From positions 1-64,000 of the forward strand of contig NZ_VUOD01000001.1 in NCBI RefSeq assembly GCF_008386465.1: a DNA stretch of 64,000 bases, given 5' to 3'. The stretch comes from Arenimonas fontis (GTDB taxonomy: Bacteria; Pseudomonadota; Gammaproteobacteria; Xanthomonadales; Xanthomonadaceae). Below, piece by piece: positions 10,363 through 28,437 of this stretch. Below the pieces are notes generated by a model. The model saw only the letters and a program-made list of their open reading frames with translations, ran no database searches and was not told the origin of the DNA. Position numbers and translations under genes: made by a program. Numbering within the stretch: position 1 is the first letter of the stretch; each line of letters opens with the position of its first letter.

Positions 10363-10438
<76 letters not shown>

Positions 10439-10447
10439 ACATTTCAA

Positions 10448-10523
10448 GTCCCCATCGTCTAGAGGCCTAGGACATTACCCTTTCACGGTAGCGACCGGGG
10501 TTCGAATCCCCGTGGGGACGCCA
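10448..10523 (+). tRNA. tRNA-Glu (anticodon TTC)
   Basis: A 76-base tRNA with acceptor stem GTCCCCA/TGGGGAC, anticodon loop containing TTC, T-arm GGTTCGAATCC, and encoded CCA at 10521-10523. It decodes GAA and GAG. Besides translation, Glu-tRNA is the substrate for tetrapyrrole synthesis. Confidence 0.95.
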
Positions 10524-10670: not shown

Positions 10671-11408
10671 ATGCCTGGGCGGTTCAGTATCGAGACGTGG
10701 TCGGCCTGCGCGGCCGGCATCGAAGACCGGCAGGCCTGGCAGGCCTGGGCGCGCGCGCCATTCCTGCCGGAAGGCGAGCCGGTGCCGGCACTGGCGGAAA
10801 TGCCGGCCATGCAACGGCGCCGGCTCGGCACCCTGGGACGCCTGGCCCTGCAGGTCGCCTGGCGCTGCCAGCCGGAGGCCGAGGCAGGCCTGCCGATGGT
10901 GTTCGCCTCCCGCCACGGTGACATCCACCGCACCCAGGAGATGCTGGACGGCCTGGCCCGCGGCGAGCCGCTTTCGCCGACCCAGTTCGGCCTGTCCACC
11001 CATAACGCGATCGCCGCGCAGTACTCGATCGCCCGCGGCATGACCGGCAACTACCTGGCGGTGGCGGCCGGCGAGGCCAGCGTAGAAGCCGGCGTGGTCG
11101 AGGCCCTGGGCCTGCTGGCCGACGGCGCGCCGGCGGTGCTGCTGGTGGCCTACGACGCACCGATTCCGTCTGCCTACGAGGCCTTCCGCGACGAACCCGA
11201 ATGCAGCTGGGCCTGGGCCTGGCGCCTGGTCCCGCCAGGCGAGGGTCTGCCGACGCTGTCGCTGTCCCCGGCAGGGGACCCGGCACCGGCGCCGTCCCCG
11301 GAGGCGGCGTCGCTGCCACATGGCCTGGAGGTGCTTCGCCAGCTGCTGGCCGGCGGTGCCGCCTGGCCGTCCCGCGATCGGCGCTGGGTGTGGCGGCGCC
11401 ATGCGTGA
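10671..11408 (+). CDS. apeC: Beta-ketoacyl synthase-like chain length factor (ApeC-like)
   Basis: A 245-residue protein related to the N-terminal half of ketosynthases (PF13723 type): SIETWSACAAGIEDR at the start, VFASRHGDIHRTQEML, and PLSPTQFGLSTHNAIA. The position of the catalytic cysteine is occupied by the sequence NYLAVAAGEASVEAG, so it cannot form an acyl-enzyme. In aryl polyene (APE) systems such a protein pairs with the active KS (ApeO) as a chain-length factor. It is the first gene of the operon; the ATG follows GGGGCAGGGG, and its stop overlaps the next start by eight bases. Confidence 0.85.
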   Translation: MPGRFSIETWSACAAGIEDRQAWQAWARAPFLPEGEPVPALAEMPAMQRRRLGTLGRLALQVAWRCQPEAEAGLPMVFASRHGDIHRTQEMLDGLARGEPLSPTQFGLSTHNAIAAQYSIARGMTGNYLAVAAGEASVEAGVVEALGLLADGAPAVLLVAYDAPIPSAYEAFRDEPECSWAWAWRLVPPGEGLPTLSLSPAGDPAPAPSPEAASLPHGLEVLRQLLAGGAAWPSRDRRWVWRRHA

Positions 11409-12183
11409 GCGGCTGAACCGGCTCTGGCGGATCTGCGGCACCGGTGTCTCCTTCGCGGCCTTCGGCCTCGGGGGCCTGCTGCTGTGGCTGCTGGCCTTTC
11501 CGCTGCTGCGCCTGTTCGTCCGCGACGAGGATCGGCGCGGCCTGCTGGCGCGGCGGGTGATCCGTCGCAGCTTCGCCGGCCACGTCGGCCTGATGCGGGC
11601 ACTGGGCGTGCTCAGCTACGAACTGGTCGGCATCGAGCGGCTGCGACGGCCGGGCCTGTTGATCCTGGCCAACCATCCGACCCTGATCGATGTGGTCTTC
11701 CTCGTCTCGCTGGTGGAGGACGCCGACTGCGTGGTCCGCGCCGGCCTGGCCGAAAACCCTTTCACCCGCGGGCCGGTGCGGGCTACCGGTTACGTCCGCA
11801 ACCACCTGGGTCCGGGCCTGGTGGACGACTGCATCGCCAGCGTCCGCGCCGGGCGCCGCCTGCTGATCTTCCCTGAGGGCACCCGGACCCCGCGCGGACA
11901 GCTACTGGGCCCGCTGCAGCGGGGCGCGGCCAACATCGCCGTGCGCGGCCGGCTGGACATGACGCCGGTCCTGATCACCTGCACGCCGCGGACCTTGGGC
12001 AAGGGGGAGAAGTGGTATCGTGTGCCCCCCCGGCGCTTCCACGTCAGGATCGAGGTACTGCCGGACATTCCGGTGGCCCCGTTCCTGGCCGCCGGCAGCG
12101 AGGCGCTGGCGGCCAGGCGCCTGACCGGATACCTGGACGAGTTCTACAAGACGGAGTTGGCACGTGTCGGCGCTGGAACCTGA
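11401..12183 (+). CDS. PlsC-type 1-acyl-glycerol-3-phosphate acyltransferase-like protein of the APE operon
   Basis: 260 residues with an N-terminal membrane helix (FGLGGLLLWLLAFPLLRLF), the HX4D motif in NHPTLID (His near residue 92) and FPEGTRTP, which are the acceptor and catalytic blocks of the PlsC family. In the enterobacterial ape order this place is held by a glycerol-phosphate-type acyltransferase, thought to help attach the polyene to its lipid anchor. The start is the ATG at 11401, inside the end of the preceding gene (ATGCGTGA); the longer frame upstream is out of context. The acceptor is not known from sequence. Confidence 0.85.
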   Translation: MRERLNRLWRICGTGVSFAAFGLGGLLLWLLAFPLLRLFVRDEDRRGLLARRVIRRSFAGHVGLMRALGVLSYELVGIERLRRPGLLILANHPTLIDVVFLVSLVEDADCVVRAGLAENPFTRGPVRATGYVRNHLGPGLVDDCIASVRAGRRLLIFPEGTRTPRGQLLGPLQRGAANIAVRGRLDMTPVLITCTPRTLGKGEKWYRVPPRRFHVRIEVLPDIPVAPFLAAGSEALAARRLTGYLDEFYKTELARVGAGT

Positions 12184-12424
12184 AATCAAGGAACTGATCA
12201 TCAGCACGCTGTCGCTGGAGGACGTCGCCCCGGACGACATCGATCCGGAGGCACCACTGTTCAACGAGGGGCTGGGCCTGGATTCGATAGACGCGCTGGA
12301 GCTGGGTTTGGCCCTGCAGAAGCGCTATGGCGTGGTCCTAAGCGCAGACTCCGAGGACACCCGCCGGCATTTCGCCAGCGTGCGCGCCCTGAGCGCGTTC
12401 GTGGCGGCCAACCGCAAGGCCTGA
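12164..12424 (+). CDS. apeE: Acyl carrier protein 1 of the aryl polyene pathway (ApeE-like)
   Basis: 86 residues with the phosphopantetheine site in GLGLDSIDALELG (Ser at residue 41). It begins at GTG, 20 bases inside the acyltransferase gene, so the two are translationally coupled. APE systems use two dedicated ACPs that carry the growing polyene; this one is placed first, as in the ape gene order. Activation to the holo form is probably by the Sfp-type transferase at the end of the same run. Confidence 0.88.
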   Translation: MSALEPEIKELIISTLSLEDVAPDDIDPEAPLFNEGLGLDSIDALELGLALQKRYGVVLSADSEDTRRHFASVRALSAFVAANRKA

Positions 12425-12457
12425 GCAGACGGCCGACGCAGACGCAAGAGCAGGACG

Positions 12458-12727
12458 ATGGACAAGCAGCAGATCTTCGAGCACGTCACTTCCATTCTCG
12501 GCGAAACCTTCGGCATCGCCCCGGAGCGGGTCCGCCCCGACGCCAGGTTGGGCGAGGACCTCGACATCGACAGCATCGATGCGGTGGACCTGATCGTGCA
12601 GCTCAAGCCGCTGCTCGGCGGCAACCTCAAACCGGAGGCCTTCCGTTCCGTGCGCACCATCCAGAACGTGGTGGATGCCCTGCACACGATGATGCACGGC
12701 GGCGTGGAAACCCACGCCGGCGGATGA
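12458..12727 (+). CDS. apeF: Acyl carrier protein 2 of the aryl polyene pathway (ApeF-like)
   Basis: 89 residues with the attachment serine in EDLDIDSIDAVDLIV (Ser39). It resembles fatty-acid ACPs more than the first ACP does (IFEHVTSILGETFGI at the start). Together the two ACPs supply starter loading and elongation in the type II polyketide-like cycle. It overlaps the next gene by four bases (ATGATG context). Confidence 0.88.
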   Translation: MDKQQIFEHVTSILGETFGIAPERVRPDARLGEDLDIDSIDAVDLIVQLKPLLGGNLKPEAFRSVRTIQNVVDALHTMMHGGVETHAGG

Positions 12728-13263
12728 TGGCGCGCGCCGCAGCCGCGCTGGCGTGGCTGGCGACCCTGCTGTATCCGCTAGCCATCTGGCTGGGCCTGGC
12801 CCGCTTCGAACCGCGCAACCTGGCCCTGATCCTGCTCGTCGTCGCCCTGTTGCGGGTCTTCGCCTCGCCACAGCCGGCCTGGCTGCTGGCGGCGGGCGCG
12901 GCGGCCCTGCTTTCGCTACTGGCCTGGCTGGGCAACGCGGGCCTGCCGCTGAAGCTTTACCCGGTAGTGGTCAACACGGTGATGCTGGCGCTGTTCGGCT
13001 GGAGCCTGCGGCATCCGCCAACGGTGATCGAACGCATCGCCCGCCTGCGCCACCCGGACCTGCCCGGGCAAGCCCGGCCCTGGCTGGTGAAGGTGACCCG
13101 GGCCTGGTGCCTGTTTTTCGTCGGCAACGGTGCGGTGGCGCTGTGGACGGCGCTGGCCGGCAGCGATGCCGCCTGGGCCCTGTACAACGGCGCCATCGCC
13201 TACGTGCTGATGGGCATGATGTTCCTGGGCGAGTGGTGGCTGAGGCCGAAACATGCCCGCTGA
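12724..13263 (+). CDS. COG4648-type integral membrane protein of the APE operon (ApeG position)
   Basis: 179 residues with about five hydrophobic segments (ALAWLATLLYPLAIWLGLA, LALILLVVALLRVF, AWLLAAGAAALLSLLAWLG, CLFFVGNGAVALWTALA and IAYVLMGMMFLGEWWL). This family occurs almost only in aryl polyene and related clusters, directly before the AMP-ligase. Its role is unproven; a membrane platform or transport helper is plausible. It overlaps both neighbours. Confidence 0.8.
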   Translation: MMARAAAALAWLATLLYPLAIWLGLARFEPRNLALILLVVALLRVFASPQPAWLLAAGAAALLSLLAWLGNAGLPLKLYPVVVNTVMLALFGWSLRHPPTVIERIARLRHPDLPGQARPWLVKVTRAWCLFFVGNGAVALWTALAGSDAAWALYNGAIAYVLMGMMFLGEWWLRPKHAR

Positions 13264-14935
13264 ACCCGCCTTCCTGTCGCTGGCCGGGCTGAGCCTCGCC
13301 GGGGCGGCGCCGGACTCGCGCCCTGTCGGCAGTGACGGTACCGACCGCCGGGCCTGGCTGGCCCGCGTCGCCGGCTGGCGCGACCTCCTGGCCTCGCTGC
13401 CAGGGGGCGATGTCGCCCTGCACCTGGACGATGCCCTGGACTTCGCCGCCGCGCTGTTCGGCGCCTGGCAGGCCGGCCGCCGCCCCTGGCTGCCCGGCGA
13501 CACGCTGCCGGCGACCCTCGCCGCGCTGGCGCCGTCGGTGACGCATTACATCGGCAACTTCCCCGGCGCCTTGCCCGCACCTGCGGACGGCAGCCCGGCA
13601 AGCGGCCGCGAGCTGGATCCGCGGCAATGCCGACTGGTGCTGTTCACTTCGGGCTCCAGCGGCGAACCGGTCGCCGTCGAAAAGCGCCTGGAGCAGCTGC
13701 AGAACGAAGTCGCTGCCCTGGAGGCGCAGTTCGGTGCGCAACTGACCGGCGCCCGGGTCGAGGGCACCGTCTCGCAGCAACACATCTACGGCCTGCTGTT
13801 CCGCGTGCTCTGGCCGCTGGCCGCCGGCCGGCCCCTGCACCGCCGGCGCCGCATCCACAGCGAGGAACTGGCGGCGCTGGGCCCGGAGCCGCTGCTGCTG
13901 GTATCCAGCCCTGCCCACCTCAAGCGCCTGCCGGATAACCAGGACTGGACGTGCCTGCGCCAGGGCTTGCGCGCCGTTTTCTGTTCCGGCGGCCCGCTGC
14001 CGGCAGATGCTGCCCACGCGGTGCGGCAGCTGTGGGGGCAGGAACCGATCGAGGTCTACGGCAGTACCGAAACCGGTGGCATCGCCTGGCGTCGTGGCGG
14101 TGGGCCGCTCCTGCCCTGGCAACCCTTGCCGGGCGTGCAGGTGCGGGTCGAGGACGGGCGGTTGGCCATCCGTTCCGCGCATCTGGCCGAAGACGCCTGG
14201 TACCGCAGCCAGGACCGCGCCCGGCCGGGCCCGGAGGGCAGCTTCGAACTGCTGGGCCGGGCCGACCGTATCCTCAAGATCGAGGAAAGGCGCATCTCCC
14301 TGGACGCGATCGAGCGCCGCCTGGCCGCCTCGCCGCTGCTCTCCGAACTGAAGGTGCTGCCCCTGCCAGGACCGCGCACCGTGCTGGGCGTGGCGGCCGT
14401 GCCCAGCGAGGTCGGCCGGCAACTGCTTGAAACCGAGGGCAGGGGCGCGCTCTCCAAGGCCCTGCGCGCCTGGCTGGAGGGCCATGCGGACCCGGTTGCG
14501 TTGCCGCGCCGTTGGCGCTTCCTGGATGCCCTGCCCACCGACGCCCAGGGCAAGGCCGGCCAACACCGCCTGCTGGAGCTGTTCCGCCCGCGCATGCCGG
14601 AGCCGCACTGGCTGCGGCGGACGCCGACGGAAGCCGAGTTGGAGCTGCAGGCCGATGCGGGACTGGCAGGGTTCCAGGGCCATTTCCCGCAGCAGCCCAT
14701 CCTGCCGGGCGTGGTGATGCTGGACTGGGCCCTGCGCCTGGGCCGGGAAGCCTTCGGTCTGGAAGGCTCGCCGCAGGGCATGGAGGCGATCAAGTTCCAG
14801 CAACTGGTACGGCCGGGCCAGCGCCTGCGCCTGCAACTGTCGCGGCTGCCGGACGCACTGGCCTTCCGCTTCGAATCGGAGCGGGGCGTGCATGCGAGCG
14901 GGCGGCTTTCCCTGCCTGGGGCCAACGATGGCTGA
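13253..14935 (+). CDS. AMP-dependent aryl-acyl ligase fused to a FabA-like dehydratase (ApeH-ApeI fusion)
   Basis: The first ~450 residues are an ANL-family adenylating enzyme: LFTSGSSGEPVAVEK (phosphate loop), VYGSTETGGIAWR, YRSQDRARPG, LGRADRILKIEERRI, and the catalytic lysine in PTDAQGKAGQHR. Residues ~455-560 are a hotdog dehydratase with FQGHFPQQPILPGVVMLDWA (catalytic His near 477). In APE pathways ApeH loads the aromatic starter on the ACP and ApeI dehydrates 3-hydroxyacyl-ACP; in many operons these are two genes. Here they are one 560-residue chain. The gene overlaps the preceding gene by 11 bases. Confidence 0.88.
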   Translation: MPAEPAFLSLAGLSLAGAAPDSRPVGSDGTDRRAWLARVAGWRDLLASLPGGDVALHLDDALDFAAALFGAWQAGRRPWLPGDTLPATLAALAPSVTHYIGNFPGALPAPADGSPASGRELDPRQCRLVLFTSGSSGEPVAVEKRLEQLQNEVAALEAQFGAQLTGARVEGTVSQQHIYGLLFRVLWPLAAGRPLHRRRRIHSEELAALGPEPLLLVSSPAHLKRLPDNQDWTCLRQGLRAVFCSGGPLPADAAHAVRQLWGQEPIEVYGSTETGGIAWRRGGGPLLPWQPLPGVQVRVEDGRLAIRSAHLAEDAWYRSQDRARPGPEGSFELLGRADRILKIEERRISLDAIERRLAASPLLSELKVLPLPGPRTVLGVAAVPSEVGRQLLETEGRGALSKALRAWLEGHADPVALPRRWRFLDALPTDAQGKAGQHRLLELFRPRMPEPHWLRRTPTEAELELQADAGLAGFQGHFPQQPILPGVVMLDWALRLGREAFGLEGSPQGMEAIKFQQLVRPGQRLRLQLSRLPDALAFRFESERGVHASGRLSLPGANDG

Positions 14936-15683
14936 GGCCGCCTATTCGCCGGCAGTGCTGATCCCGGTCTTCGACCATGCCGACGCCATCGGTAGCGTGG
15001 TTGCCGCGTTGCGCCCGCATGGCCTGCCCATCCTGCTGGTGGACGACGGCTCCGGCGAGTGCTGCGCCGCCGTCCTGCGCGAGCTTGCCGACAGCGGTGA
15101 CGGCCAGGTCGGCCTGCTGCGCCTGGAGCACAATCAGGGTAAGGGCGGGGCCGTGATGGCCGGCTTCCGGGAACTGGCCCGGCGCGGCCACAGCCACGCC
15201 CTGCAGCTGGACGCCGACGGCCAGCACGACTGCGCCGACCTGCCGCGTTTCATCGAGGAAGGCCGGCGCTTCCCGCAGGCAGTGATCAATGGGCGTCCGG
15301 TCTACGACCGCTCCGTGCCGCGCTCCCGCCTCTACGGGCGCTACCTGACCCACGTCTGGGTCTGGATCAACACGCTGTCGCTGGACATCGCCGATTCAAT
15401 GTGCGGCTTCCGCCTTTATCCGCTGGCGCCGACCCTGGCCCTGATGGAGCGGGTACAGCTGGGCCGGCGCATGGATTTCGACACCGAAGTGATCGTGCGC
15501 CTGCACTGGCAGGGCGTAGCGGTCCGCAACCTGGAGACCCGGGTCACCTATCCGGCCGACGGCGTTTCGCATTTCGACCTGTTGCGCGACAACCTGCGCA
15601 TCTCGGCCATGCATGCGCGCCTGTTCTTCGGGATGCTGGCGCGCCTGCCCTTGCTGCTCGCCCGGCGCCGGAGGCGGGCATGA
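14928..15683 (+). CDS. Family 2 glycosyltransferase of the APE operon
   Basis: 251 residues with a GT2 fold: VLIPVFDHADAIGSVV at the start, ILLVDDGSGE, LEHNQGKGGAVMAGF, and LQLDADGQHD as the DXD-type metal site. It resembles dolichol-phosphate-mannose-synthase-like enzymes and the glycosyltransferase half of ApeJ. It probably adds a sugar to the lipid anchor of the polyene. The ATG at 14928 overlaps the preceding stop (ATGGCTGA); a longer in-frame start at 14892 is rejected. The LPxL-like partner follows as a separate gene with a 4-base overlap. Confidence 0.85.
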   Translation: MAEAAYSPAVLIPVFDHADAIGSVVAALRPHGLPILLVDDGSGECCAAVLRELADSGDGQVGLLRLEHNQGKGGAVMAGFRELARRGHSHALQLDADGQHDCADLPRFIEEGRRFPQAVINGRPVYDRSVPRSRLYGRYLTHVWVWINTLSLDIADSMCGFRLYPLAPTLALMERVQLGRRMDFDTEVIVRLHWQGVAVRNLETRVTYPADGVSHFDLLRDNLRISAMHARLFFGMLARLPLLLARRRRRA

Positions 15684-16627
15684 GCGGCCGCCTGCACTGG
15701 GCCGGGCTGGGCGAACACACGTTCGTCGCCGGCACCTGGCTGCTTTACGGCGTGTACCGCCTGCTGGGCCGCTGGCCGTTCCGCTGTTGCCTCTACCCGG
15801 TGGTGCTGGCCTACTGGTTGGCGGTGCCACTGGCCCGCCGCGCCTCGCGCGAGTACCTGCAGCGGCTGCAGGCCAGCACCGGCGCCCTCGGCCGGGCACC
15901 GACGCGGATGGATTCGCTGCGGCATTTCCTGCTGTTCGCCGAGACCCTGCTGGACAAGATGCTGGCGGTCGGCGGCCGCTACCCGCGCGAGCGCGTGCGC
16001 TTCGGCGGCGATGGCGAGCAGAGCCTGAAGGCGGCGATCGAGGCGGGGCGGGGCGGTATAATCGCCACCGCCCACGTCGGCTGCCTCGAACTGATGCAGA
16101 TGGCGGCGGACTGGCGCGAGGGCCTGCGGGTCACCGCCTTGGTCCACACCGCGCATGCGCAGAGGTTCAACCGCATCCTGTCGCGCCTCAATCCCGGTCT
16201 GGGCTTGAGGCTGGTGCAGGTCACGGCCTTCGACGCGGGCATGGCCAGCGAGCTGGCGCGGCGGGTGGCGGAAGGGGAGTTCCTGGCCATCGCCGCCGAC
16301 CGGGTTCCGGTACGGGGCGATCGCACGGCGCGGGCCGGCTTCCTTGGCCAGCCGGCCGATTTTCCGGCCGGGCCCTGGCTGGTCGCCACGGTGCTGGGCT
16401 GCCCGGTCTGGGGCCTGGCCTGTCTGCACGAAGGGGATGGCTACCACGCCCGGGTCGAACTGCTGGCCGAGCGCGTCCGCCTGCCACGGGACGACCGGCA
16501 GCAGGCTCTGGATGCCTGTGCCGCACGCTTCGCCGATTGGCTGGGAGAGTGTCTGAAACGCTCACCGCTGGACTGGTTCAACTTCTTTCCGTTCTGGGAC
16601 TCCGCCGCGCATGGCCGCAACCGCTGA
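15680..16627 (+). CDS. LpxL/HtrB-like lipid A-type acyltransferase of the APE operon
   Basis: 315 residues. The N-terminus is hydrophobic (LYPVVLAYWLAVPLARR) and the family landmarks DSLRHFLLFAETLLDKML, GGIIATAHVGCLELMQMA (the HX4E motif at His-Val-Gly-Cys-Leu-Glu), AADRVPVRGDR and DWFNFFPFWD are present. In enterobacterial clusters this domain is the acyltransferase half of the ApeJ fusion. It is expected to transfer an acyl chain, possibly the polyene itself, to a glycolipid. Start at 15680 (ATGA overlap). Confidence 0.85.
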   Translation: MSGRLHWAGLGEHTFVAGTWLLYGVYRLLGRWPFRCCLYPVVLAYWLAVPLARRASREYLQRLQASTGALGRAPTRMDSLRHFLLFAETLLDKMLAVGGRYPRERVRFGGDGEQSLKAAIEAGRGGIIATAHVGCLELMQMAADWREGLRVTALVHTAHAQRFNRILSRLNPGLGLRLVQVTAFDAGMASELARRVAEGEFLAIAADRVPVRGDRTARAGFLGQPADFPAGPWLVATVLGCPVWGLACLHEGDGYHARVELLAERVRLPRDDRQQALDACAARFADWLGECLKRSPLDWFNFFPFWDSAAHGRNR

Positions 16628-18161
16628 TATCCGTCGCCTGACCCTGGATGGTCGGCCGCTCCGCATCGAGGACGTGGTGGACGTGGCGCTGCGCCGGGCC
16701 CGCACCTCGCTGTCCACAGATCCGGCGTTCCGGGCCCGCATCCAGCGCGGCGCCGACCTGGTGGACCGCCTGATCGCCGAGGACGGCGTGGTCTACGGCG
16801 TCAGCACCGGCTACGGCGACTCCTGCACCGTCGCCATCCCGCCCTCGCTGGTACCCGAGCTGCCGCGGCACCTTTACACCTACCACGGCGTCGGCCTGGG
16901 CCGCTGGCTGACGCCGGAGGAAACCCGCGCCGTCCTCTTCGCCCGCCTGCAGTCCCTGGTCCAGGGCATGTCCGGCGTCAGCATCGCCCTGCTCGAACAG
17001 CTGCAGGCCCTGCTCGAACACGACATCCTGCCGCTGATCCCGGCCGAGGGTTCGGTCGGCGCCAGCGGTGATCTCACGCCGCTGTCCTATGTCGCCGCCG
17101 CGCTCTGCGGCGAGCGCCAGGTCTGGCACGACGGGCGCCTGATGCCCGCCGCCGAGGCCCTGGCCATGCACGGACTGCGGCCGCTGCGCCTACGCCCCAA
17201 GGAAGGCCTGGCCATCATGAACGGCACCGCGGTGATGACCGGCCTGGCCTGCCTAGCCCTGCGCCGGGCCGACTATCTGGGCCGCCTGGCTACCCGCCTG
17301 ACCGCCTGGAACGTCGCCGCCAGCGCTGGCAACGCCCACCACTTCGACCAGACGCTGTTCGCGGCCAAACCACATCCCGGCCAGCAGCGCGTGGCCGCGC
17401 GTCTGCGCCGGGACCTGGCCTCGGACCGGCCGCCGCGCAACGAGCAACGCCTGCAGGACCGCTATTCGCTGCGCTGCGCCCCGCACGTGATCGGCGTGCT
17501 CGAGGATGCGCTACCGATGCTGCGGAGCATGCTGGAGAACGAGCTCAACAGCGCCAACGACAATCCGCTGATAGACGCCGAGCAGGAAATGGTCCTGCAT
17601 GGAGGCCATTTCTACGGCGGCCACATCGCTTTTGCCATGGACAGCCTGAAGAACCTGGTGGCCAATCTAGCCGACCTGCTGGACCGGCAGCTGGCGGTAC
17701 TGGTGGATAGCCGCTACAACCATGGCCTGCCCGCCAACCTGTCCGGCGCGGAGGGAGTGCGCGCGCCGCTCAACCATGGCTTGAAGGCACTGCAAATCTC
17801 GGTGTCGGCCTGGACCGCCGAGGCGCTGAAACTGACCATGCCTGCCTCGGTGTTCTCGCGCTCGACCGAATGCCACAACCAGGACAAGGTCAGCATGGGC
17901 ACGATCGCCGCCCGCGACGCGCTGCGTGTGCTCGAGCTGTCCGAACAGGTGGCGGCGGCCATGCTGATCGCCTCGCGCCAGGCCTTGGCCCTGCGCCGGC
18001 GCACTGGCAGCGAGCCGCAGCTGGCGCCGGAGGCGACGGCGATGCAGGCCGACCTGGAAGCGCGCATACCGCTTCTGGTCGAGGACCGTGCCCTGGACGG
18101 CGAGCTGCGGGCCCTGCTGGCCGCCATCCGCGCCGAGGAGTGGCCGCTTTATGAAGCTTGA
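16611..18161 (+). CDS. Aromatic amino acid ammonia-lyase family protein (HAL/PAL/TAL type) in the APE operon
   Basis: 516 residues with the self-cyclising MIO triad in VGASGDLTPLSYVA (Ala151-Ser152-Gly153), the catalytic tyrosine in VVYGVSTGYGD (Tyr62), NGTAVMTGL, QDRYSLRC and HNQDKVSMG. These enzymes deaminate His, Phe or Tyr. The selectivity loop reads RHLYTYHGVGLG, which is neither the Ser-His of histidine ammonia-lyases nor the His-Leu of tyrosine ammonia-lyases. Similar genes occur in Xanthomonas pigment clusters. It may supply or tune the aromatic starter, but the substrate is not established. It overlaps both neighbours (17 and 11 bases). Confidence 0.82.
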   Translation: MAATADIRRLTLDGRPLRIEDVVDVALRRARTSLSTDPAFRARIQRGADLVDRLIAEDGVVYGVSTGYGDSCTVAIPPSLVPELPRHLYTYHGVGLGRWLTPEETRAVLFARLQSLVQGMSGVSIALLEQLQALLEHDILPLIPAEGSVGASGDLTPLSYVAAALCGERQVWHDGRLMPAAEALAMHGLRPLRLRPKEGLAIMNGTAVMTGLACLALRRADYLGRLATRLTAWNVAASAGNAHHFDQTLFAAKPHPGQQRVAARLRRDLASDRPPRNEQRLQDRYSLRCAPHVIGVLEDALPMLRSMLENELNSANDNPLIDAEQEMVLHGGHFYGGHIAFAMDSLKNLVANLADLLDRQLAVLVDSRYNHGLPANLSGAEGVRAPLNHGLKALQISVSAWTAEALKLTMPASVFSRSTECHNQDKVSMGTIAARDALRVLELSEQVAAAMLIASRQALALRRRTGSEPQLAPEATAMQADLEARIPLLVEDRALDGELRALLAAIRAEEWPLYEA

Positions 18162-18567
18162 GCTGTACGCCGAAATCGAACTGAGCCCTGCCTTCCACGA
18201 CCTGGATCCGATGGACGTGGTCTGGCACGGCAACTATGTCCGCTACTTCGAACATGCCCGCTGCGCGCTGCTGCAATCGTTCGGCTACGACTATCCGCAG
18301 ATGCGCGATTCCGGCTACGCATGGCCGGTCGTGGACATGCGCTGCAAATATGTGCGGCCGGCCCGCTACGGTCAGCGCCTGAAGGTCCGGGCAACGCTGG
18401 TCGAGTGGGAGAACCGGTTGAAGATCGACTACCTGATCCGCGACGCCGACACCGGCGAAGTGCTGACCCGCGCCCACACCATCCAGGTGGCGGTGGATCT
18501 GCGCACCGGCGAGATGTGCCTGGTCTCGCCGCAGGTGCTGGCGCGCAAGCTGGGGCGGGAAGCCTGA
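18151..18567 (+). CDS. 4HBT-type acyl thioesterase (ApeK-like)
   Basis: 138 residues with the hotdog thioesterase motif DLDPMDVVWHGNYVRYFEHA, in which Asp19 is the likely catalytic residue. The protein is a 4-hydroxybenzoyl-CoA thioesterase-like enzyme. In APE operons it holds the ApeK place and is thought to release or proofread acyl-ACP intermediates. Start at 18151 inside the lyase gene end; it ends in TGATG with the next gene. Confidence 0.85.
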   Translation: MKLELYAEIELSPAFHDLDPMDVVWHGNYVRYFEHARCALLQSFGYDYPQMRDSGYAWPVVDMRCKYVRPARYGQRLKVRATLVEWENRLKIDYLIRDADTGEVLTRAHTIQVAVDLRTGEMCLVSPQVLARKLGREA

Positions 18568-19154
18568 TGGTCACCGGTCTGCTTGCGCTGCTGTTGGCCC
18601 TGGCGCCGATGCCGGCGACCGCGATGGAGTTGCCGCCGCTGGAAAGCCCGGCGGTACTGCGCGGCGACTTCGTCCAGGAAAAGCGCATCGCCGGCTTCCA
18701 GGCGCCGCTGCGCTCGCAGGGCCGCTTCCTGTTGCTGCGTGGCCGCGGCCTGCTCTGGGAGACGCGGGAGCCGTTTCCCTCCACGCTGGTGGTGACGACC
18801 GCTCAGATGTATGAGATCGGCCCGGACGGAGCCCGGCGGCCGCTGCCTGGCACCGGCGAGGACCGGGCGGGGCAGGTGACCGGCATGCTGTTGGCCCTGC
18901 TCGGCGGCGACCTGAAGTCGCTGCAGGATCGGTTCCGGACCGAACAACTGCCGGCGGGCGAGCACGCCTGGCGCCTGCGCCTGTCGCCGCGGGATCCTGT
19001 CCTGGGCACGGCCTTCGGCCTGCTGGAGCTGGCCGGCGATCGCCATGTCCGCGAGGTGCGTATCGAGCGCGCGGACGAGACGACGCTGATCCGTTTCACC
19101 GGGCTGGAGACCGCCGCCGCCCCGGCCGCGGAGGAGGCCGCCCGTCTTGAGTGA
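18567..19154 (+). CDS. LolA-like outer-membrane lipoprotein carrier of the APE operon (ApeL position)
   Basis: 195 residues. A signal peptide (MVTGLLALLLALAPMPATA) is followed by the LolA-like start LRGDFVQEKRIAGFQAPLRS and LLWETREPFPSTLVVT. LolA carries hydrophobic cargo across the periplasm; here the partner cargo is probably the polyene lipid. The ATG at 18567 overlaps the preceding stop by one base. The stop overlaps the TTG start of the exporter by eight bases. Confidence 0.85.
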   Translation: MVTGLLALLLALAPMPATAMELPPLESPAVLRGDFVQEKRIAGFQAPLRSQGRFLLLRGRGLLWETREPFPSTLVVTTAQMYEIGPDGARRPLPGTGEDRAGQVTGMLLALLGGDLKSLQDRFRTEQLPAGEHAWRLRLSPRDPVLGTAFGLLELAGDRHVREVRIERADETTLIRFTGLETAAAPAAEEAARLE

Positions 19155-21486: not shown

Positions 21487-22721
21487 GCCTGCGCCGCGAA
21501 AAGACCGACCTGCTGATCATAGGCGCGGGACCGGCCGGCTCGGTGGCCGCAGGCTTGCTGCGACGGCAGGGCAATGAGGTGCTGATGCTGGAAAAGCAAC
21601 AGTTCCCGCGCTTCTCCATTGGCGAGAGCCTGTTACCGCAAAGCATGGAGTACCTGGAGGCCGCAGGCATGCTGCGGGCCGTGGTCGAGGCCGGCTTCCA
21701 GTACAAGAACGGCGCTGCCTTCGCCCGCGCCGGCCGCCACACCATCTTCGATTTTCGCGACAAGTTCAGCTCGGGCTGGGGCACCACCTACCAGGTGCAG
21801 CGCGCCACTTTCGACGAGATCCTCGCCCGCGAGGCCGAGCGCATGGGCGCGACACTGCGCTTCCGGCATGAGGTGCTGGCGCTTGACCTGGAAGGCGAGC
21901 GCGCCCTGGTCCGCGTCCGCGACCCGGAGGGCGGGGAATACGAGGTGGAAGCCGGCTTCGTGCTCGACGCCAGCGGTTTCGCCCGCGTACTGCCGCGCCT
22001 GCTCGACCTGGAAACGCCCTCGGGCTTCCCGGTGCGTGGCGCCATCTTCACCCACGTCCGCGACAACATCCCGGCCGACGGCGGTTTCGACCGCAACAAG
22101 ATCCTGATCTCGGTGCATCCCGACCGCCAGGATGTCTGGTACTGGACGATCCCGTTCTCCAACGGCACCTGCTCGCTGGGCGTGGTGGCCGAGGCCGCCT
22201 ACCTGGAAAGCCAGGCGGCCGGGGACGACAACACCCGCCTGAAGGCCATGGTGGCGCAGGAGCCCGGCCTGGCCCGGCTGCTGGACAAGGCCGAGTGGAC
22301 CATGCCGGCGCGCCGCCTGGTTGGCTATTCGGCCAACGTGAAGTCGCTCTGGGGCCGCCACTACGCGCTGCTGGGCAATGCCGGCGAGTTTCTCGACCCG
22401 GTGTTCTCCTCGGGGGTAACCATCGCCTTCAAGTCGGCGGCCCTGGCCGCCGACTGCCTGCGCCGCCGCTTCGCCGGCGAGAACGTGAACTGGGACACCG
22501 AATACGAGCGGCCGCTGCGCCTGGGCGTGAGCACCTTCCGCCGCTTCGTGGACTCCTGGTACGCCGGCGGCTTCCAGAACATCATCTTCCATCCGCGGCA
22601 GAACCCGGACATCCGGCGCATGATCTGCGCCATCCTGGCCGGCTACGCCTGGGACACCAACAACCCCTACGTCGCCGAGGGGCGCCGGCTGGCGGTGCTG
22701 GAGGAGCTGTGTTCCGCCTGA
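21483..22721 (+). CDS. FAD-dependent halogenase-like monooxygenase in the APE operon
   Basis: 412 residues. The FAD motif is LLIIGAGPAGSVAAGLL; the halogenase signature WxWxIP is present as WYWTIP (residues 219-224). NAGEFLDPVFSSGVTIAFKS matches the second flavin-binding stretch of phenolic-type halogenases (CndH/PltA group), and Lys75 (FQYKNGAAF) lies where the active lysine is found. Xanthomonadins are brominated aryl polyenes, so halogenation of the aryl head is a fitting role. A non-halogenating FAD reductase of similar fold is the alternative. It overlaps both neighbours. Confidence 0.75.
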   Translation: MSLRREKTDLLIIGAGPAGSVAAGLLRRQGNEVLMLEKQQFPRFSIGESLLPQSMEYLEAAGMLRAVVEAGFQYKNGAAFARAGRHTIFDFRDKFSSGWGTTYQVQRATFDEILAREAERMGATLRFRHEVLALDLEGERALVRVRDPEGGEYEVEAGFVLDASGFARVLPRLLDLETPSGFPVRGAIFTHVRDNIPADGGFDRNKILISVHPDRQDVWYWTIPFSNGTCSLGVVAEAAYLESQAAGDDNTRLKAMVAQEPGLARLLDKAEWTMPARRLVGYSANVKSLWGRHYALLGNAGEFLDPVFSSGVTIAFKSAALAADCLRRRFAGENVNWDTEYERPLRLGVSTFRRFVDSWYAGGFQNIIFHPRQNPDIRRMICAILAGYAWDTNNPYVAEGRRLAVLEELCSA

Positions 22722-23263
22722 GGCCATCATCTGATCTGGCAAGACTGGCGGCGCTGGCGATACTGCTGGCCCTGTCGGCCTGCGCCGGCGCCCGCGGCAG
22801 GCCCGCGCCGCTGCCGCCACCGTTGCGGCTGGCGCCGGCGCTGCTGCCGGCACCGCTGGCGGCGGACCAGCGCCTGAGCTTCCGCCACGCCGGCGGTGAG
22901 GATGTGCTGGACGCGCGCCTGGAAGCCGATGCGCAGCGCCTGCAACTGGCCTTGCACCGCTTCGGCCAAGTGCTGCTGGTGCTGCGCTGGGACGGGCAGG
23001 CGCTGGAACAGTCGCGAGCGCCGCAGGCGCCGCTGACGCTGTCGCCGGAGCGGGTGCTGGATGATGTGCAACTGGTCTACTGGCCGGCCGAGGCGATCCG
23101 CGCGGCAATGCCCACCGGCTGGACCCTGGAGGAGGGAAGAGATGGCCGGCGCTTGCGCCATGGCCGCAGCACCCTGGTCGAGATCGTGCATCTGGACGAC
23201 AAGCGCGTCCGCCTGCGCCGGCCGGGCTACGAGCTGATCATCGAGACGCGGGAGCTGCCATGA
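22709..23263 (+). CDS. DUF3261 lipoprotein of the APE operon (ApeN position)
   Basis: 184 residues starting at a GTG 13 bases inside the halogenase gene. The N-terminus is a lipoprotein signal with lipobox LSAC (LAALAILLALSACAG). The rest is a beta-rich periplasmic domain (RFGQVLLVLRWDGQALEQS, RPGYELIIETRELP). DUF3261 proteins are nearly restricted to APE-type clusters and are expected at the outer membrane, as partners of the LolA/MMPL export proteins. The longer frame on this strand, starting at 22295, lies within the halogenase gene and is a shadow. Confidence 0.8.
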   Translation: MFRLRPSSDLARLAALAILLALSACAGARGRPAPLPPPLRLAPALLPAPLAADQRLSFRHAGGEDVLDARLEADAQRLQLALHRFGQVLLVLRWDGQALEQSRAPQAPLTLSPERVLDDVQLVYWPAEAIRAAMPTGWTLEEGRDGRRLRHGRSTLVEIVHLDDKRVRLRRPGYELIIETRELP

Positions 23264-24441
23264 GCGCGGTTTTCCTGCGAGAGCTGGGCCTGGCCTGCGC
23301 GCTCGGCCGCCATGTGGACGAAGTCGCCGCCGGTCTCTTCGCCGCCGACCGGCCGCGCGGCCTTGAAATCAGCGAGGCCTGCAGCCCGGGCCGGCCCATG
23401 CCATTGGGCTGGGTGCCGGGCGGGCTGGATCCGCTGGCCGACTGGCCGCTGCCTCTTCGCGGCCGCAACAACGCGCTGCTGGCCCTGGCGGCGGCTTCGC
23501 TGCAGGACGCCGTCGCCGCCGAGGCGGAACGCTTCGGTGCCATGCGCCTCGGCGTGGTGCTGGGCACCAGCACCTCCGGCGTTGGCGAAAGCGAGCAGGC
23601 CAACATCCATCGCATCGCCACCGGCCGTTGGCCGGAGGACTTCCACTACCGGCAGCAGGAAATGGGCACGCCGGCACGCTTCCTGGCCGAGCTGCTGGGC
23701 CTGCGTGGGCCGGCCCATGTCATTTCCACGGCCTGCTCCTCCAGCGCCAAGGCCCTGGCCTCGGCCGCGCGCTTGCTGCAGGCGGGCTTCTGCGACGCGG
23801 TCGTCGCCGGCGGCGCCGATTCGCTCTGCCGTTTCACCGTCGCCGGCTTCGATTCCCTGGGCGCGGTGTCCGACCGCCGCTGCAATCCCTTTTCGCGGCA
23901 TCGCGCAGGCATCAACATCGGCGAGGGCGCGGCCCTGTTCCTGCTGACGCGGCAGGAGGGGCCGGTGCGCCTGGCAGGCTGGGGCGAGAGCGCCGACGCC
24001 CACCACATGTCCGCTCCCGATCCCGCCGGCGCCGGCCCCGAGGCCTGCATCCGCGAGGCGCTGGCGCGGGCAGGACGGCGCCCGCAGGAGATCGACTACG
24101 TCAACCTGCACGGCACCGCGACCCTGCAGAACGACGCGATGGAAGCGGGCGTGCATCACCGCATCTTCGGCCAGGACTGTCCCGCCAGCTCGACCAAACC
24201 GATGACCGGCCACACCCTCGGCGCCGCCGGCGCCATCGAGGCGGCCGTCGCCTGGCTGTGCCTGGCCCGCAATCCGCAGCGCCGGCTGCCGCCGCACTGG
24301 TGGGACGGCGAGGCCGATCCGGCGCTGGCGACGGTGCGGCTGGCGCGCCCCGGCGAGACGGTGTCGCGACTGCGCCGCGTGCTCAGCCAGTCCTTCGCCT
24401 TCGGCGGCAGCAACATCGCCCTTGTGCTGGAAGCGGAATGA
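23260..24441 (+). CDS. apeO: Beta-ketoacyl-ACP synthase (elongating KS, ApeO-like)
   Basis: 393 residues with the full thiolase-fold triad: Cys159 in STACSSSAKAL, His284 in NLHGTATLQND and His318 in KPMTGHTLGAAG. In the ape order it is the KS that pairs with the cysteine-less chain-length factor encoded first in this operon. It carries out decarboxylative condensation of malonyl-ACP with the growing aryl polyene. The gene starts in the ATGAG overlap with the lipoprotein gene. Confidence 0.88.
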   Translation: MSAVFLRELGLACALGRHVDEVAAGLFAADRPRGLEISEACSPGRPMPLGWVPGGLDPLADWPLPLRGRNNALLALAAASLQDAVAAEAERFGAMRLGVVLGTSTSGVGESEQANIHRIATGRWPEDFHYRQQEMGTPARFLAELLGLRGPAHVISTACSSSAKALASAARLLQAGFCDAVVAGGADSLCRFTVAGFDSLGAVSDRRCNPFSRHRAGINIGEGAALFLLTRQEGPVRLAGWGESADAHHMSAPDPAGAGPEACIREALARAGRRPQEIDYVNLHGTATLQNDAMEAGVHHRIFGQDCPASSTKPMTGHTLGAAGAIEAAVAWLCLARNPQRRLPPHWWDGEADPALATVRLARPGETVSRLRRVLSQSFAFGGSNIALVLEAE

Positions 24442-24902
24442 ACGACGTAGTAGCCTCCCTGCCGATCGAACGTCTGGTGCCGCACCGCGAGCCGATGCTG
24501 TGGCTGCAACGGGTGCTGTATTGCGACGAGAACCAGGTGCTGGCCGAGGCGGTGGTCGGGGAGGACCATCTTCTGCTGGACGGCGGCATGGTCCCGGCCT
24601 TCGCCGGCATCGAGTACATGGCCCAGGCCATCGCCGCCTGGGCCGGCGCCCGCGCACTGTCGCGCGGCGAGGCGGTAAAGCCGGGGTTTCTGCTCGGTAC
24701 CCGCCGCTACCGCGCCAGCTGCCCCGGTTTCCATCCGGGCCAATGCCTGCAGATAGAGGGCCGCCGCGAGCTGTTCGGCGAGAACGGCCTGGGCATGTTC
24801 GCCTGCCGCATCCTCGAAGCCGGCGAGGTCCTGGCCACGGCCAACGTCTCGGTCTTCGAGCCACCCGATCCCGACGCCTTCCTGGGGAACTCCGCTTCAT
24901 GA
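24438..24902 (+). CDS. apeP: 3-hydroxyacyl-ACP dehydratase, hotdog fold (ApeP-like)
   Basis: 154 residues. The catalytic pair is probably His16 in VPHREPMLW and Glu59 in FAGIEYMAQAIAAWA, matching the ApeP/COG4706 dehydratase family. In APE synthesis ApeP works with ApeI to introduce the double bond in each cycle. Start at 24438 overlaps the KS gene by four bases (ATGA). Confidence 0.87.
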   Translation: MNDVVASLPIERLVPHREPMLWLQRVLYCDENQVLAEAVVGEDHLLLDGGMVPAFAGIEYMAQAIAAWAGARALSRGEAVKPGFLLGTRRYRASCPGFHPGQCLQIEGRRELFGENGLGMFACRILEAGEVLATANVSVFEPPDPDAFLGNSAS

Positions 24903-25627
24903 GCAATCGCTGCATTCTCGTCACCGGCGCCAGCGGTGACATCGGACGGGCCATCGCCCTGCGCCTGGCCCGCGACGGATTCGACATCGCCGTACACTGC
25001 CGCAGCCGGCGCGAACAGGCCGAAGCCGCGGCCGCGGAGATCCGGGCCCTGGGCCGCGAAGCCCGGGTGCTGGCCTTCGACATCGCCGACCGCGCCGCCT
25101 GCGCTGCCACCATCAGCGCCGATACCGAGGCCAACGGCGCCTACCATGGCGTCGTCCTCAACGCCGGCATCGCCCGCGACGCCGCTTTCCCGGCCATGAG
25201 CGCCGAGGAATGGGACAGCGTGATCCGCACCGACCTGGACGGCTTCTACAACGTGCTGCAGCCGGCGGTCATGCCGATGGTGCGCCGGCGCCAGCCCGGC
25301 CGCATCGTCACCATCGCCTCGGTGTCCGGGCTTGCCGGCAATCGGGGCCAGACCAACTACAGTGCCGCCAAGGCCGGCCTGATCGGCGCCACCAAGGCCC
25401 TGGCCCTGGAACTGGCCAAGCGCCAAATCACGGTCAACTGCGTCGCCCCCGGCCTGATCGAGACCGGCATGCTGCCGGAACACGTGATCGCGGAGGCGCT
25501 GCCGATGATTCCCTTGCGCCGGCTCGGCCGCCCCGAGGACGTGGCGGCGGTGGTGTCCTTCCTGATCTCCGACGAGGCCGGCTATCTCACCCGGCAGGTG
25601 ATCTCGGTCAACGGGGGCATGCTGTGA
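24899..25627 (+). CDS. apeQ: 3-oxoacyl-ACP reductase, FabG type (ApeQ-like)
   Basis: 242 residues of the classical SDR fold: VTGASGDIGRAIA, NAGIARDAAF, the catalytic Ser in IASVSGLAG and Tyr154/Lys158 in NYSAAKAGL, and the FabG end RLGRPEDVAAVVSFL, ISVNGGML. It reduces the beta-keto group after each condensation. Translation is coupled by ATGA overlaps on both sides. Confidence 0.9.
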   Translation: MSNRCILVTGASGDIGRAIALRLARDGFDIAVHCRSRREQAEAAAAEIRALGREARVLAFDIADRAACAATISADTEANGAYHGVVLNAGIARDAAFPAMSAEEWDSVIRTDLDGFYNVLQPAVMPMVRRRQPGRIVTIASVSGLAGNRGQTNYSAAKAGLIGATKALALELAKRQITVNCVAPGLIETGMLPEHVIAEALPMIPLRRLGRPEDVAAVVSFLISDEAGYLTRQVISVNGGML

Positions 25628-26856
25628 GCCGGCGGGTGGTGGTCACCGGCCGCGGGGTGATCAGTCCCCTCGGTCACGACTGGCCGAGCGTGCGGGCCTG
25701 GCTGAAATCCGGCCGCAACGCGGTCCGCCGCTTCGACGAGTGGGGCGAGTTCCGCGGACTGAATACCCGTCTGGGCGTTCCCTGCGCGGATTTCGAGCTG
25801 CCGGCGCACTACACCCGCAAGGCCACCCGCGCCATGGGGCGCGTCGCCTTGCTGGCGACCCTGGCCAGCGAGCGCGCCCTGGCCGACGCCGGCCTGCTGG
25901 GCGACCCGATCCTGGGCAGCGGCAAGGTCGGCATCTCCTACGGCTCCTCGGCCGGCACGCCGGCCTCAATGAGCGATTTCGGCCGTACCCTGGCCGAGAA
26001 GAACACCCAGTACATCAACGCCACCACCTACATCAGGATGATGGCGCACACGGCGCCGGTGAACATGGGCGTGTTCTTCGGCATCACCGGCCGCATCGTC
26101 ACCACCTGCAGCGCCTGCACCTCCGGCAGCCAGGGCATCGGCTATGCCTACGAAGCGATCCGCAGCGGCCGGCAACTGGCAATGCTGGCGGGCGGCTCGG
26201 AGGAACTCGACGTCACCTCGGCGACGGTGTTCGATACCCTGTTCGCCACCAGCACCCGCAACGACGAGCCGGACGCCACGCCGCGACCTTTCGATGCCGG
26301 TCGCGACGGCCTGGTGGTGGGCGAGGGCGCCTGCACCCTGGTGCTGGAGGAGCTGGAACACGCCCTGGCGCGCGGTGCCCGCATCCACGGCGAGATCGTC
26401 GGCTACGGCACCAACAGCGACGGCCGGCACGTGACCCAGCCCAATGCCGACACCATGGCGGTGGCCATGCGCCTGGCACTGGAGGATGCCGACCTGCCGC
26501 CGGAGGCGATCGGCTACGTCAGCGCCCACGGCACCGCCACCGACCATGGCGACGTCGCCGAAAGCGCCGCCACCGCCGCCGTGCTGGGCAACCGGATCCC
26601 GATCAGCGCGCTGAAGAGCTATACCGGCCACACCCTGGGCGCCTGCGGTTCGCTGGAAGCCTGGGTGGCCCTGGAGATGATGCGCGAGGGCTGGATGCAT
26701 CCTACCCTCAACCTGCGCGAACCGGACCCGCGCTGCGCCGAGCTGGACTACATCGCCGGCGAGGGCAGGGCGATGGACATCGAATACGCCATGAGCAACA
26801 ACTTCGCCTTCGGCGGTATCAACACTTCGCTGATCCTCCGCCGCTGGCCGCAATGA
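25624..26856 (+). CDS. apeR: Beta-ketoacyl-ACP synthase (initiating KS, ApeR-like)
   Basis: 410 residues, GTG start. FabF-like: VVTGRGVISPLG at the start, Cys165 in CSACTSGSQGIG, His302 in SAHGTATDHGD, His336 in SYTGHTLGACG. In APE systems ApeR is a second, separate KS thought to act on the starter or early condensations. It closes the canonical apeC-apeR order. The stop overlaps an ATG at 26853, but the next gene probably starts at 26880. Confidence 0.88.
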   Translation: MSRRVVVTGRGVISPLGHDWPSVRAWLKSGRNAVRRFDEWGEFRGLNTRLGVPCADFELPAHYTRKATRAMGRVALLATLASERALADAGLLGDPILGSGKVGISYGSSAGTPASMSDFGRTLAEKNTQYINATTYIRMMAHTAPVNMGVFFGITGRIVTTCSACTSGSQGIGYAYEAIRSGRQLAMLAGGSEELDVTSATVFDTLFATSTRNDEPDATPRPFDAGRDGLVVGEGACTLVLEELEHALARGARIHGEIVGYGTNSDGRHVTQPNADTMAVAMRLALEDADLPPEAIGYVSAHGTATDHGDVAESAATAAVLGNRIPISALKSYTGHTLGACGSLEAWVALEMMREGWMHPTLNLREPDPRCAELDYIAGEGRAMDIEYAMSNNFAFGGINTSLILRRWPQ

Positions 26857-26879
26857 CGAACCCGGCAATGGAGACAAGC

Positions 26880-27290
26880 ATGAAGCGATTCCTCGTCCCG
26901 ACCTTCCTCGTCCTGGCCCTGGCCGCGACGCCTGCCGCGGCGCGGGTAGACAGGCTGGAGCCGCCGCAGCAGATAACGGTCGTCGGCCCAGGCGGCAGCA
27001 CGCCCCGCCTGGAAGACGTTCGGGAAGCGGTCATTACCGCGGGCATTCCGCGCGGCTGGCACCTGGTCGAGGACCAGCCGGGGCGGGCAGTACTGCGCAA
27101 CGTCATCCGCGGCAAGCACACCGTGGTGGTGGCGGTGGTCTATGACCAGTCCAGCTTCCGCATCGAGTACGTCTCCAGCGAGAACCTCAACTACCGCGAG
27201 AAGCGCGGCAAGGCCTACATCCACCCGAAGTACTTCCAGTGGACCAACAACCTGGCCCAGGACATCCGCCTGGCCGTGGCCTCGCCCTGA
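26880..27290 (+). CDS. Small secreted protein of unknown function at the end of the APE operon
   Basis: 136 residues. A signal peptide (MKRFLVPTFLVLALAATPA) precedes a compact domain with LEDVREAVITAGIPRGWHLV, TVVVAVVYDQSSFRIEYVSS and YFQWTNNLAQDIRLAVA. I do not recognise a family. It has no lipobox or other membrane helix, so it should be periplasmic. The ATG at 26880 has GGAG six bases upstream and starts the signal peptide; starts at 26853 and 26868 are possible. Its place between the last KS and the phosphopantetheinyl transferase suggests a part in polyene handling in the envelope. Confidence 0.65.
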   Translation: MKRFLVPTFLVLALAATPAAARVDRLEPPQQITVVGPGGSTPRLEDVREAVITAGIPRGWHLVEDQPGRAVLRNVIRGKHTVVVAVVYDQSSFRIEYVSSENLNYREKRGKAYIHPKYFQWTNNLAQDIRLAVASP

Positions 27291-27305
27291 ATCCCGGCCG
27301 CGGAG

Positions 27306-27977
27306 ATGCTGCGCTGCCTGCTGCGCGTCGCTGAGGCCATCCCGCCGTCGGGAACGGCGGCGGATTGGTTGAGCGAGGCCGAGCGGGCGCGGCTGGCGGC
27401 GATGCGGGCGCCACGCCGGCGCGACCAGTACCTGGCCGGGCATTGGCTGGCCCGCTCGCTGGCGGCAAGGGGATTCGGTGGCCATGCAGGTGACTGGCAC
27501 TGGCAGCACCCGGAAGGGGAGCCGCCACGGCTCACCCGCAGCGGTTGGCGCGAACCGCTGCGGGTATCGATCAGCCACAGCGGCGAGCGCATCGCCGTCG
27601 CGGTGGCGAACGGGCCGGTCGGCCTGGATCTCGAATACCCGCAACGGCCGCGCGACCTCGACGGTCTGGCCGCCTTCGTCTTCACCCGCGGGGAGCGCGA
27701 GCGCCTGGCCGCGCAGCCGGCGCCGGAGAGGGCCCGCGCCTTCTACCGCTACTGGGCCCTCAAGGAGGCGGAAGGGAAGCGGTGCGGCAAGGGGCTGCTG
27801 CCGGGAAGGGCGCGTCGCCTCCAGTGTGAACCGGCAGCGGCGGAGCAGGCGGAAGCGCTGACTTGGCAACTGCCCGACGGCGGCATGCTGGCCATCGCCG
27901 CCTGGCCGGGCATCGTCGCCGTCATCGGCGAGCAGGACTGGGGCGCGCCGACAGGCTGGCGCCTGGTGGAAGTCTAG
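27306..27977 (+). CDS. 4'-phosphopantetheinyl transferase, Sfp/AcpT type
   Basis: 223 residues with the Sfp motifs VGLDLEYPQR (metal-binding acidic pair) and YRYWALKEAEGKRCGKG (the WxxKEA motif). It transfers phosphopantetheine from CoA to carrier-protein serines, here most likely the two ACPs of the operon. It starts 15 bases after the small secreted gene, and its stop overlaps the convergent cueR stop by four bases, marking the end of the pigment operon. Confidence 0.9.
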   Translation: MLRCLLRVAEAIPPSGTAADWLSEAERARLAAMRAPRRRDQYLAGHWLARSLAARGFGGHAGDWHWQHPEGEPPRLTRSGWREPLRVSISHSGERIAVAVANGPVGLDLEYPQRPRDLDGLAAFVFTRGERERLAAQPAPERARAFYRYWALKEAEGKRCGKGLLPGRARRLQCEPAAAEQAEALTWQLPDGGMLAIAAWPGIVAVIGEQDWGAPTGWRLVEV

Positions 27978-28423: not shown

Positions 28424-28437
28424 GCTCGTCCCTCATG

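Follow-up and report, generated by a model that had tools for sequence, protein, structure and literature searches.

The stretch analysed here, referred to as the window, comprises the first 64,000 nt of contig NZ_VUOD01000001.1 of Arenimonas fontis (assembly GCF_008386465.1). A codon-based gene call delimited an operon of 20 genes in it, all on the + strand, at positions 10671-27977. Fifteen of the 19 junctions between these genes overlap, and the other four are gaps of 8, 15, 23 and 33 bases. The gene order is that of E. coli apeC to apeR, as given in Table 1 of the available part of PMC8253772, with two changes: ApeH and ApeI are fused in a single gene, and the single ApeJ of E. coli is split into a glycosyltransferase and an acyltransferase gene. 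Four more genes join the apeC-apeR set: one codes for an aromatic amino acid lyase, one for a flavin halogenase, one for a small protein whose start resembles a signal peptide, and one for a phosphopantetheinyl transferase (PPTase). Judged by gene order and protein families, the aryl polyene (APE) operon is complete and belongs to a known type of bacterial yellow-pigment operon. This agrees with the original prediction, which had described 20 same-strand and nearly all overlapping genes in apeC-to-apeR order, and had placed the ammonia-lyase-like, the halogenase-like and the small secreted protein gene correctly. We consider it fairly likely that its product is an aryl polyene pigment that starts from tyrosine, is bound to the outer membrane and probably carries a halogen, although we infer substrate, starter, halogen and product.

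The first gene (10671-11408) codes for ApeC, the chain-length-factor-like half of a ketosynthase pair (PF13723, 5e-65; solved kin 6qsp_B and 7f28_A). It is followed by genes for the acyltransferase ApeD (11401-12183; PF01553), the acyl carrier proteins (ACPs) ApeE (12164-12424; PF00550, and NF006617 over its cut-off) and ApeF (12458-12727; PF00550, and NF003757 over its cut-off), both with a DSI motif, and an ApeG-like membrane protein recognized by position and order only (12724-13263). The fused gene (13253-14935; PF00501 and PF22818; solved kin 6qsr_A and 3esi) joins ApeH, an acyl-ACP synthetase-like ligase, to an ApeI dehydratase domain (residues 460-530). Next come the glycosyltransferase part (14928-15683; PF00535) and the LpxL-like acyltransferase part (15680-16627; PF03279) of ApeJ, the lyase (16611-18161; PF00221, 8.5e-160), the thioesterase ApeK (18151-18567; PF13279), the LolA-like carrier ApeL (18567-19154; PF03548), the RND/MMPL-type exporter ApeM (19147-21486; PF12349, with the HpnN-like model TIGR03480 below cut-off), the flavin-dependent halogenase (21483-22721; PF04820, 86.9 bits with a cut-off of 21) and the DUF3261 LolB-like lipoprotein ApeN (22709-23263; PF11659). 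The distal part codes for the ketosynthase ApeO (23260-24441; NF006618, 467.8, cut-off 407), the dehydratase subunit ApeP (24438-24902; PF22817; 6qsr_B), the ketoreductase ApeQ (24899-25627; TIGR01831 over cut-off), the ketosynthase ApeR (25636-26856; NF006587, 680.9, cut-off 470; solved kin 4ewg first and 7f27 second), the small protein (26880-27290) and the PPTase (27306-27977; PF01648). A Pfam family was assigned to 18 of the 20 genes, ApeG and the small protein giving no match. No methyltransferase family appeared among the Pfam and NCBIfam matches of the 20 genes, and hence no counterpart of ApeB was seen. The core of an APE cluster is therefore present (ApeO, the chain-length-factor-like ApeC, two ACPs, ligase, ketoreductase, and the ApeI and ApeP dehydratases), as are the genes for lipid anchoring and outer-membrane export (ApeD, J, L, M and N).

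The active sites were inspected at the usual motif positions of ketosynthases, reductases, dehydratases and ACPs. Cys-His-His is present in ApeO and ApeR, Ser-Tyr-Lys in ApeQ, Asp-Ser in both ACPs, and His and Asp in the ApeI domain; for these proteins, the earlier statement that all active-site residues are visible was correct. It did not hold for ApeC, which as a chain-length-factor-like protein has no Cys at the ketosynthase active-site place, nor for ApeP, in which the FabZ-type position holds no His (Leu in 63%) and a Glu is kept in 54 of 54 aligned sequences. A Glu without a conserved His at its usual place in ApeP fits a paired ApeI:ApeP enzyme. The structures 6qsp and 6qsr are those of Xenorhabdus APE proteins.

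The lyase is strictly linked to this type of operon. A set of 149 genomes of the family was inspected with thresholds of ≥68% identity for the lyase (24 genomes) and ≥52% for the operon ketosynthase (23 genomes). All 23 genomes with the operon ketosynthase had the lyase, on the same contig in 22; genome G110 is fragmented. In the 24th genome with a lyase (G114) the gene lies on a 7 kb contig. Within the genus, five of six genomes, this one counted, had both ketosynthase and lyase, and G103 had neither. In addition, the lyase served as query to collect named loci, and the 80 best among 559 confirmed relatives were retained; the closest among them is an Arenimonas metagenome-assembled genome (MAG; lyase 79%). 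Sixty-seven of the 80 hold ApeC, ApeO and ApeR, eight are short or cut, and five show another setting. The presence of the lyase in 67 of 67 complete loci is not evidence of linkage, since the lyase fetched them; the independent figure is the 23 of 23 family genomes.

The active site of the lyase reads HNQD, with a Gln in all 85 aligned sequences of its clade. All seven histidine-type lyases, including the second lyase of this genome, have a Glu (ED) at the position of this Gln, the active-site Glu of histidine ammonia-lyases. The Gln is also found in L150 and L153, two canonical lyases encoded beside photoactive yellow protein. The possibility that the window lyase is the histidine-degradation enzyme of this genome was discarded; the other lyase, on contig 29, carries the Glu motif. 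The Ala-Ser-Gly triad of the MIO (4-methylideneimidazol-5-one) group, expected of a tyrosine ammonia-lyase, is present in 84 of the 85 sequences, that of the window included. The L109 lyase has DSG instead of ASG, and may have lost its activity or owe the difference to a misread sequence.

Members of the same lyase clade also occur in operons that use p-coumarate, which is made by tyrosine ammonia-lyase and serves as the chromophore of photoactive yellow protein. In a Methylibium MAG (L074), two genes come after that of the lyase (74%), one for a photoactive yellow protein (183.5 bits against a cut-off of 143.05), the other for a 4-coumarate:CoA ligase (362.7, cut-off 334.7). In a Methyloversatilis MAG (L118), a ligase of this type (328.6, slightly short of the cut-off) and a protein resembling photoactive yellow protein (84.5, far below its cut-off) are encoded after the lyase (71%). 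In both regions (L074:535-5845 and L118:9935-14582) the lyase, ligase and photoactive-yellow-protein-type genes are followed by sensor-like proteins; L074 has two photoactive-yellow-protein-type genes, one over the cut-off and one under. A quick tree (L076 and L085 excluded) placed both lyases inside those of the operons: that of L074 groups with two Paucibacter lyases from APE loci (SH-aLRT 97), and that of L118 forms a long branch. Other photoactive yellow protein loci speak against an easy generalization, having a lyase of a different clade (37% in L150, 35% in L153, and 40% in L154, whose lyase is cut by the contig end and was excluded from the alignment); in L151, L152 and L155 no lyase was found within about 16 kb. 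In Xanthomonas bonasiae (L080:8623-12500), the surroundings of a clade lyase (72%) hold an ACP (45%) and a ligase that matches in part (48%), but no further genes of the APE operon. Because the active site has Gln rather than Glu, and because two members of the clade lie in gene settings that need p-coumarate, it is likely that the lyase works like a tyrosine ammonia-lyase; it would then probably make a p-coumaroyl starter, as in the alterochromide and flexirubin pathways.

The halogenase proposed earlier was supported by its motifs, Lys75 and WxWxIP, found in 54 of 54 aligned sequences; the catalytic Lys and WxWxIP are the signature of flavin-dependent halogenases. Among the 67 complete named loci, 51 had a halogenase, 13 a FlxJ-type methyltransferase, three neither and none both (Fisher p 2e-11, kinship ignored). 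The alternative ring gene is FlxJ-like, scoring 437.5 bits with a cut-off of 560. The halogenase always lies between exporter and ketosynthase; the methyltransferase occupies that slot in five loci, lies between ligase and glycosyltransferase in seven, and elsewhere in one. The rule that both are never present applies to the FlxJ type only, since a different methyltransferase (MT2) accompanies the halogenase in L067, L116 and L117. At least 10 changes among the three ring-gene states are required on the lyase tree, with the window counted. In the 149-genome set a halogenase was matched in 18 of 23 operons; of the five others, three were inspected, and the slot holds the methyltransferase in G057 and G088, while G124 has neither gene. 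In G073 (C1:688291-689515) the halogenase match is split over two overlapping frames, as if frameshifted. From these genes, the ring of the pigment is probably halogenated.

As to the rest of the family, 97 of the 149 genomes had only a weaker ketosynthase (42-49%). No genome gave both kinds among the candidates scored, at most 12 per genome at E 1e-50. The weaker clusters are probably of the xanthomonadin type, as suggested by their content; in G129, G012 and G006 this ketosynthase and a halogenase both lie near a chorismatase. The window halogenase is 59-76% identical to the halogenases of 17 further genomes that carry this operon type, and only 29-36% to matches in 73 other family genomes. 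Relative to the loci presumed from their content to be of the xanthomonadin type, the identities are only 42-49% for the ketosynthase and 29-36% for the halogenase.

Several observations weigh against a tyrosine-primed pathway. The selectivity pair of the lyase is Tyr-His in 78 and Phe-His in seven of the 85 clade sequences (Ser/Thr-His in the seven histidine-type lyases), not His-Leu as in L150 and L153, the pair of canonical tyrosine ammonia-lyases. Further, no NCBIfam lyase model exceeded its cut-off for the window lyase, and the top scorer was a histidine-lyase model. By its residues the enzyme is neither a histidine lyase nor a canonical tyrosine lyase. The non-canonical pair, and the presence of tyrosine aminomutases among the nearest solved structures by sequence, would suit an enzyme that prefers phenylalanine, giving a cinnamoyl starter, or an aminomutase; with kin of the lyase in p-coumarate-using operons, we find this improbable. 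A similar doubt applies to the flavoprotein at 21483-22721, whose nearest solved relative, 3nix, carries no annotation beyond flavoprotein/dehydrogenase, and which weakly matches many non-halogenase flavoprotein models. It might be a hydroxylase-like relative, a poor prospect given the invariant Lys and WxWxIP and a PF04820 score over the cut-off. Further, the title of a 1985 report gives halogenated aryl polyenes for Xanthomonas maltophilia, now Stenotrophomonas maltophilia, and the S. maltophilia locus L045 has this operon, halogenase included.

The origin of the starter had been left open in the original prediction, which noted that a starter gene (chorismatase, XanB2) was absent from the window. 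No chorismatase was indeed found in the 64 kb, but contig 28 of this genome carries a lone one; a second APE cluster around it was looked for, and none was present in the 38 kb examined. UbiC and PF01947, as sources of 4-hydroxybenzoate, were not found in this genome. The lyase probably fills the role of the starter gene, so the view that such a gene is absent is likely mistaken. Weighing against the lyase, a chorismatase is also present in 18 of the 24 genomes that have the lyase, among them this one, and it adjoins the operon in L057, L060, L064, L066, L085 and G044. The starter could then be 3- or 4-hydroxybenzoate from the contig 28 chorismatase, as for xanthomonadin and E. coli APE, with the lyase in a side role; for E. 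coli ApeH, the part of PMC8253772 at hand gives 4-hydroxybenzoate as the predicted substrate. We regard this as unlikely, given that the lyase is present in every operon genome and that four 100% complete operon genomes (G071, G098, G124 and G145 of genus g30, probably Stenotrophomonas) yielded no PF21168 chorismatase, also in a protein search, and no UbiC or PF01947. G088 and G114 lack a chorismatase too, but are 85% complete. The argument from the four genomes has a weakness: ubiquinone needs 4-hydroxybenzoate, and therefore some source of it was missed in them, possibly another enzyme type or a route from p-coumarate.

The operon is preceded by a tRNA-Ala/tRNA-Glu pair (10363-10523). Arenimonas L040 has this pair in the same position, and in the three Pseudoxanthomonas loci tried it is turned the other way round; no such pair is present at L045, L057 or L073. 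Genes upstream of the operon are common to L040 and several Pseudoxanthomonas loci, and the G+C content of the operon equals that of its surroundings. These shared features and the even G+C content give the impression of an old locus inherited vertically. Neither a start nor a stop signal of the operon rose above chance: a promoter scan found one site (0.8 expected), located before the tRNA pair, and a terminator scan found four (6.1 expected). Inspection by eye gave a MerR-like regulator gene and a gene resembling P-type metal ATPases on the opposite strand downstream of the operon (27974-30633). The small protein at 26880 has kin at the operon end in nine of 80 loci. Its AlphaFold model, built from 10 sequences, had a mean pLDDT of 84.3; the best Foldseek match, a BAM-complex chain (E 8.4e-4, TM 0.41, rmsd 16.6), is too weak for a claim of function. 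A different conserved, small secreted-looking family follows ApeR in L045 (20393-20833), with matches in 46 of 80 loci and none to Pfam or NCBIfam.

In the tyrosine-primed pathway that we propose, the lyase would convert L-tyrosine to p-coumarate, which ApeH would load onto ApeE. Extension with malonyl units by ApeO/ApeC, ApeQ and ApeI:ApeP would yield a conjugated polyene, the halogenase would act on the phenol ring, and the PPTase would activate the carrier proteins. ApeK, ApeD and the two ApeJ parts may transfer the pigment to a lipid anchor, and ApeM, ApeL and ApeN may transport it to the outer membrane. The likely answer to the question of where the starter comes from is thus the lyase. 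More broadly, we give about an even chance to the view that this lyase, which general models match best as histidine ammonia-lyase, marks a widespread, separate lineage of tyrosine-primed, flexirubin-like APE operons in Lysobacteraceae, Burkholderiales, myxobacteria and some Pseudomonas, which in Lysobacteraceae replaces the chorismate-primed xanthomonadin-type cluster, and whose ring gene has switched repeatedly between halogenase and FlxJ-type methyltransferase, both never being kept. This suggests a rule for reading the APE product from sequence, in which a clade lyase stands for a tyrosine-derived starter and a halogenase or methyltransferase for the decoration of the ring. If true, it would give a gene-level account of the halogenated aryl polyenes of S. 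maltophilia named in the 1985 title.

Among known systems, the E. coli CFT073 cluster apeA-apeR shares the C-to-R order and functions. As described in the accessible part of PMC8253772, it lacks lyase, halogenase and PPTase, has ApeA and the methyltransferase ApeB, and keeps ApeH and ApeI separate and ApeJ single. An ammonia lyase is listed as a characteristic APE gene, as here, for APE Vf of A. fischeri ES114 (BGC0000837) in the portion of PMC8719888 available, a likeness by description only. As such a lyase is already in print as an APE gene, the operon adds a well-formed example to a known kind. No title in the literature searched paired an aryl polyene with a tyrosine ammonia-lyase. Xanthomonadin of Xanthomonas and the Lysobacter 'yellow' cluster share the type II aryl polyene machinery, but have their own chorismatase-fed 3-hydroxybenzoate starter; the text of PMC3691225, as far as available, gives a halogenase in Xanthomonas and none in Lysobacter enzymogenes. 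Unlike the window operon, these systems show no ammonia-lyase there: the word 'lyase' occurs 0 times in the available text of PMC3691225 and once, in a reference, in that of PMC3949708. Of the 'xanthomonadin-like additions' seen earlier, the halogenase gene is real, but the likeness is weak overall, given the 29-36% identity to the presumed xanthomonadin-type halogenases and the silence of these texts on an ammonia-lyase. The flexirubin (flx) pathway has a tyrosine-lyase-type starter gene in common, and its FlxJ resembles the alternative ring gene of the relatives; it differs in that the window lyase reaches only 322 of 700 bits on the FlxA model, and the dialkylresorcinol gene was not among the 20 operon genes, the rest of the genome not having been searched for one. 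In Pseudoalteromonas, the alterochromide (alt) pathway shares the step from tyrosine to a coumarate starter, type II polyene extension and a separate halogenase gene. Its logic, with the tyrosine lyase AltA and the halogenase AltN, was demonstrated by mutants and by feeding and rescue with coumarate, according to the part of PMC5577590 available; it differs in that the polyene is handed to a nonribosomal peptide synthetase lipopeptide. By gene content, the additions to the operon appear to resemble the alterochromide and flexirubin pathways more than that of xanthomonadin.

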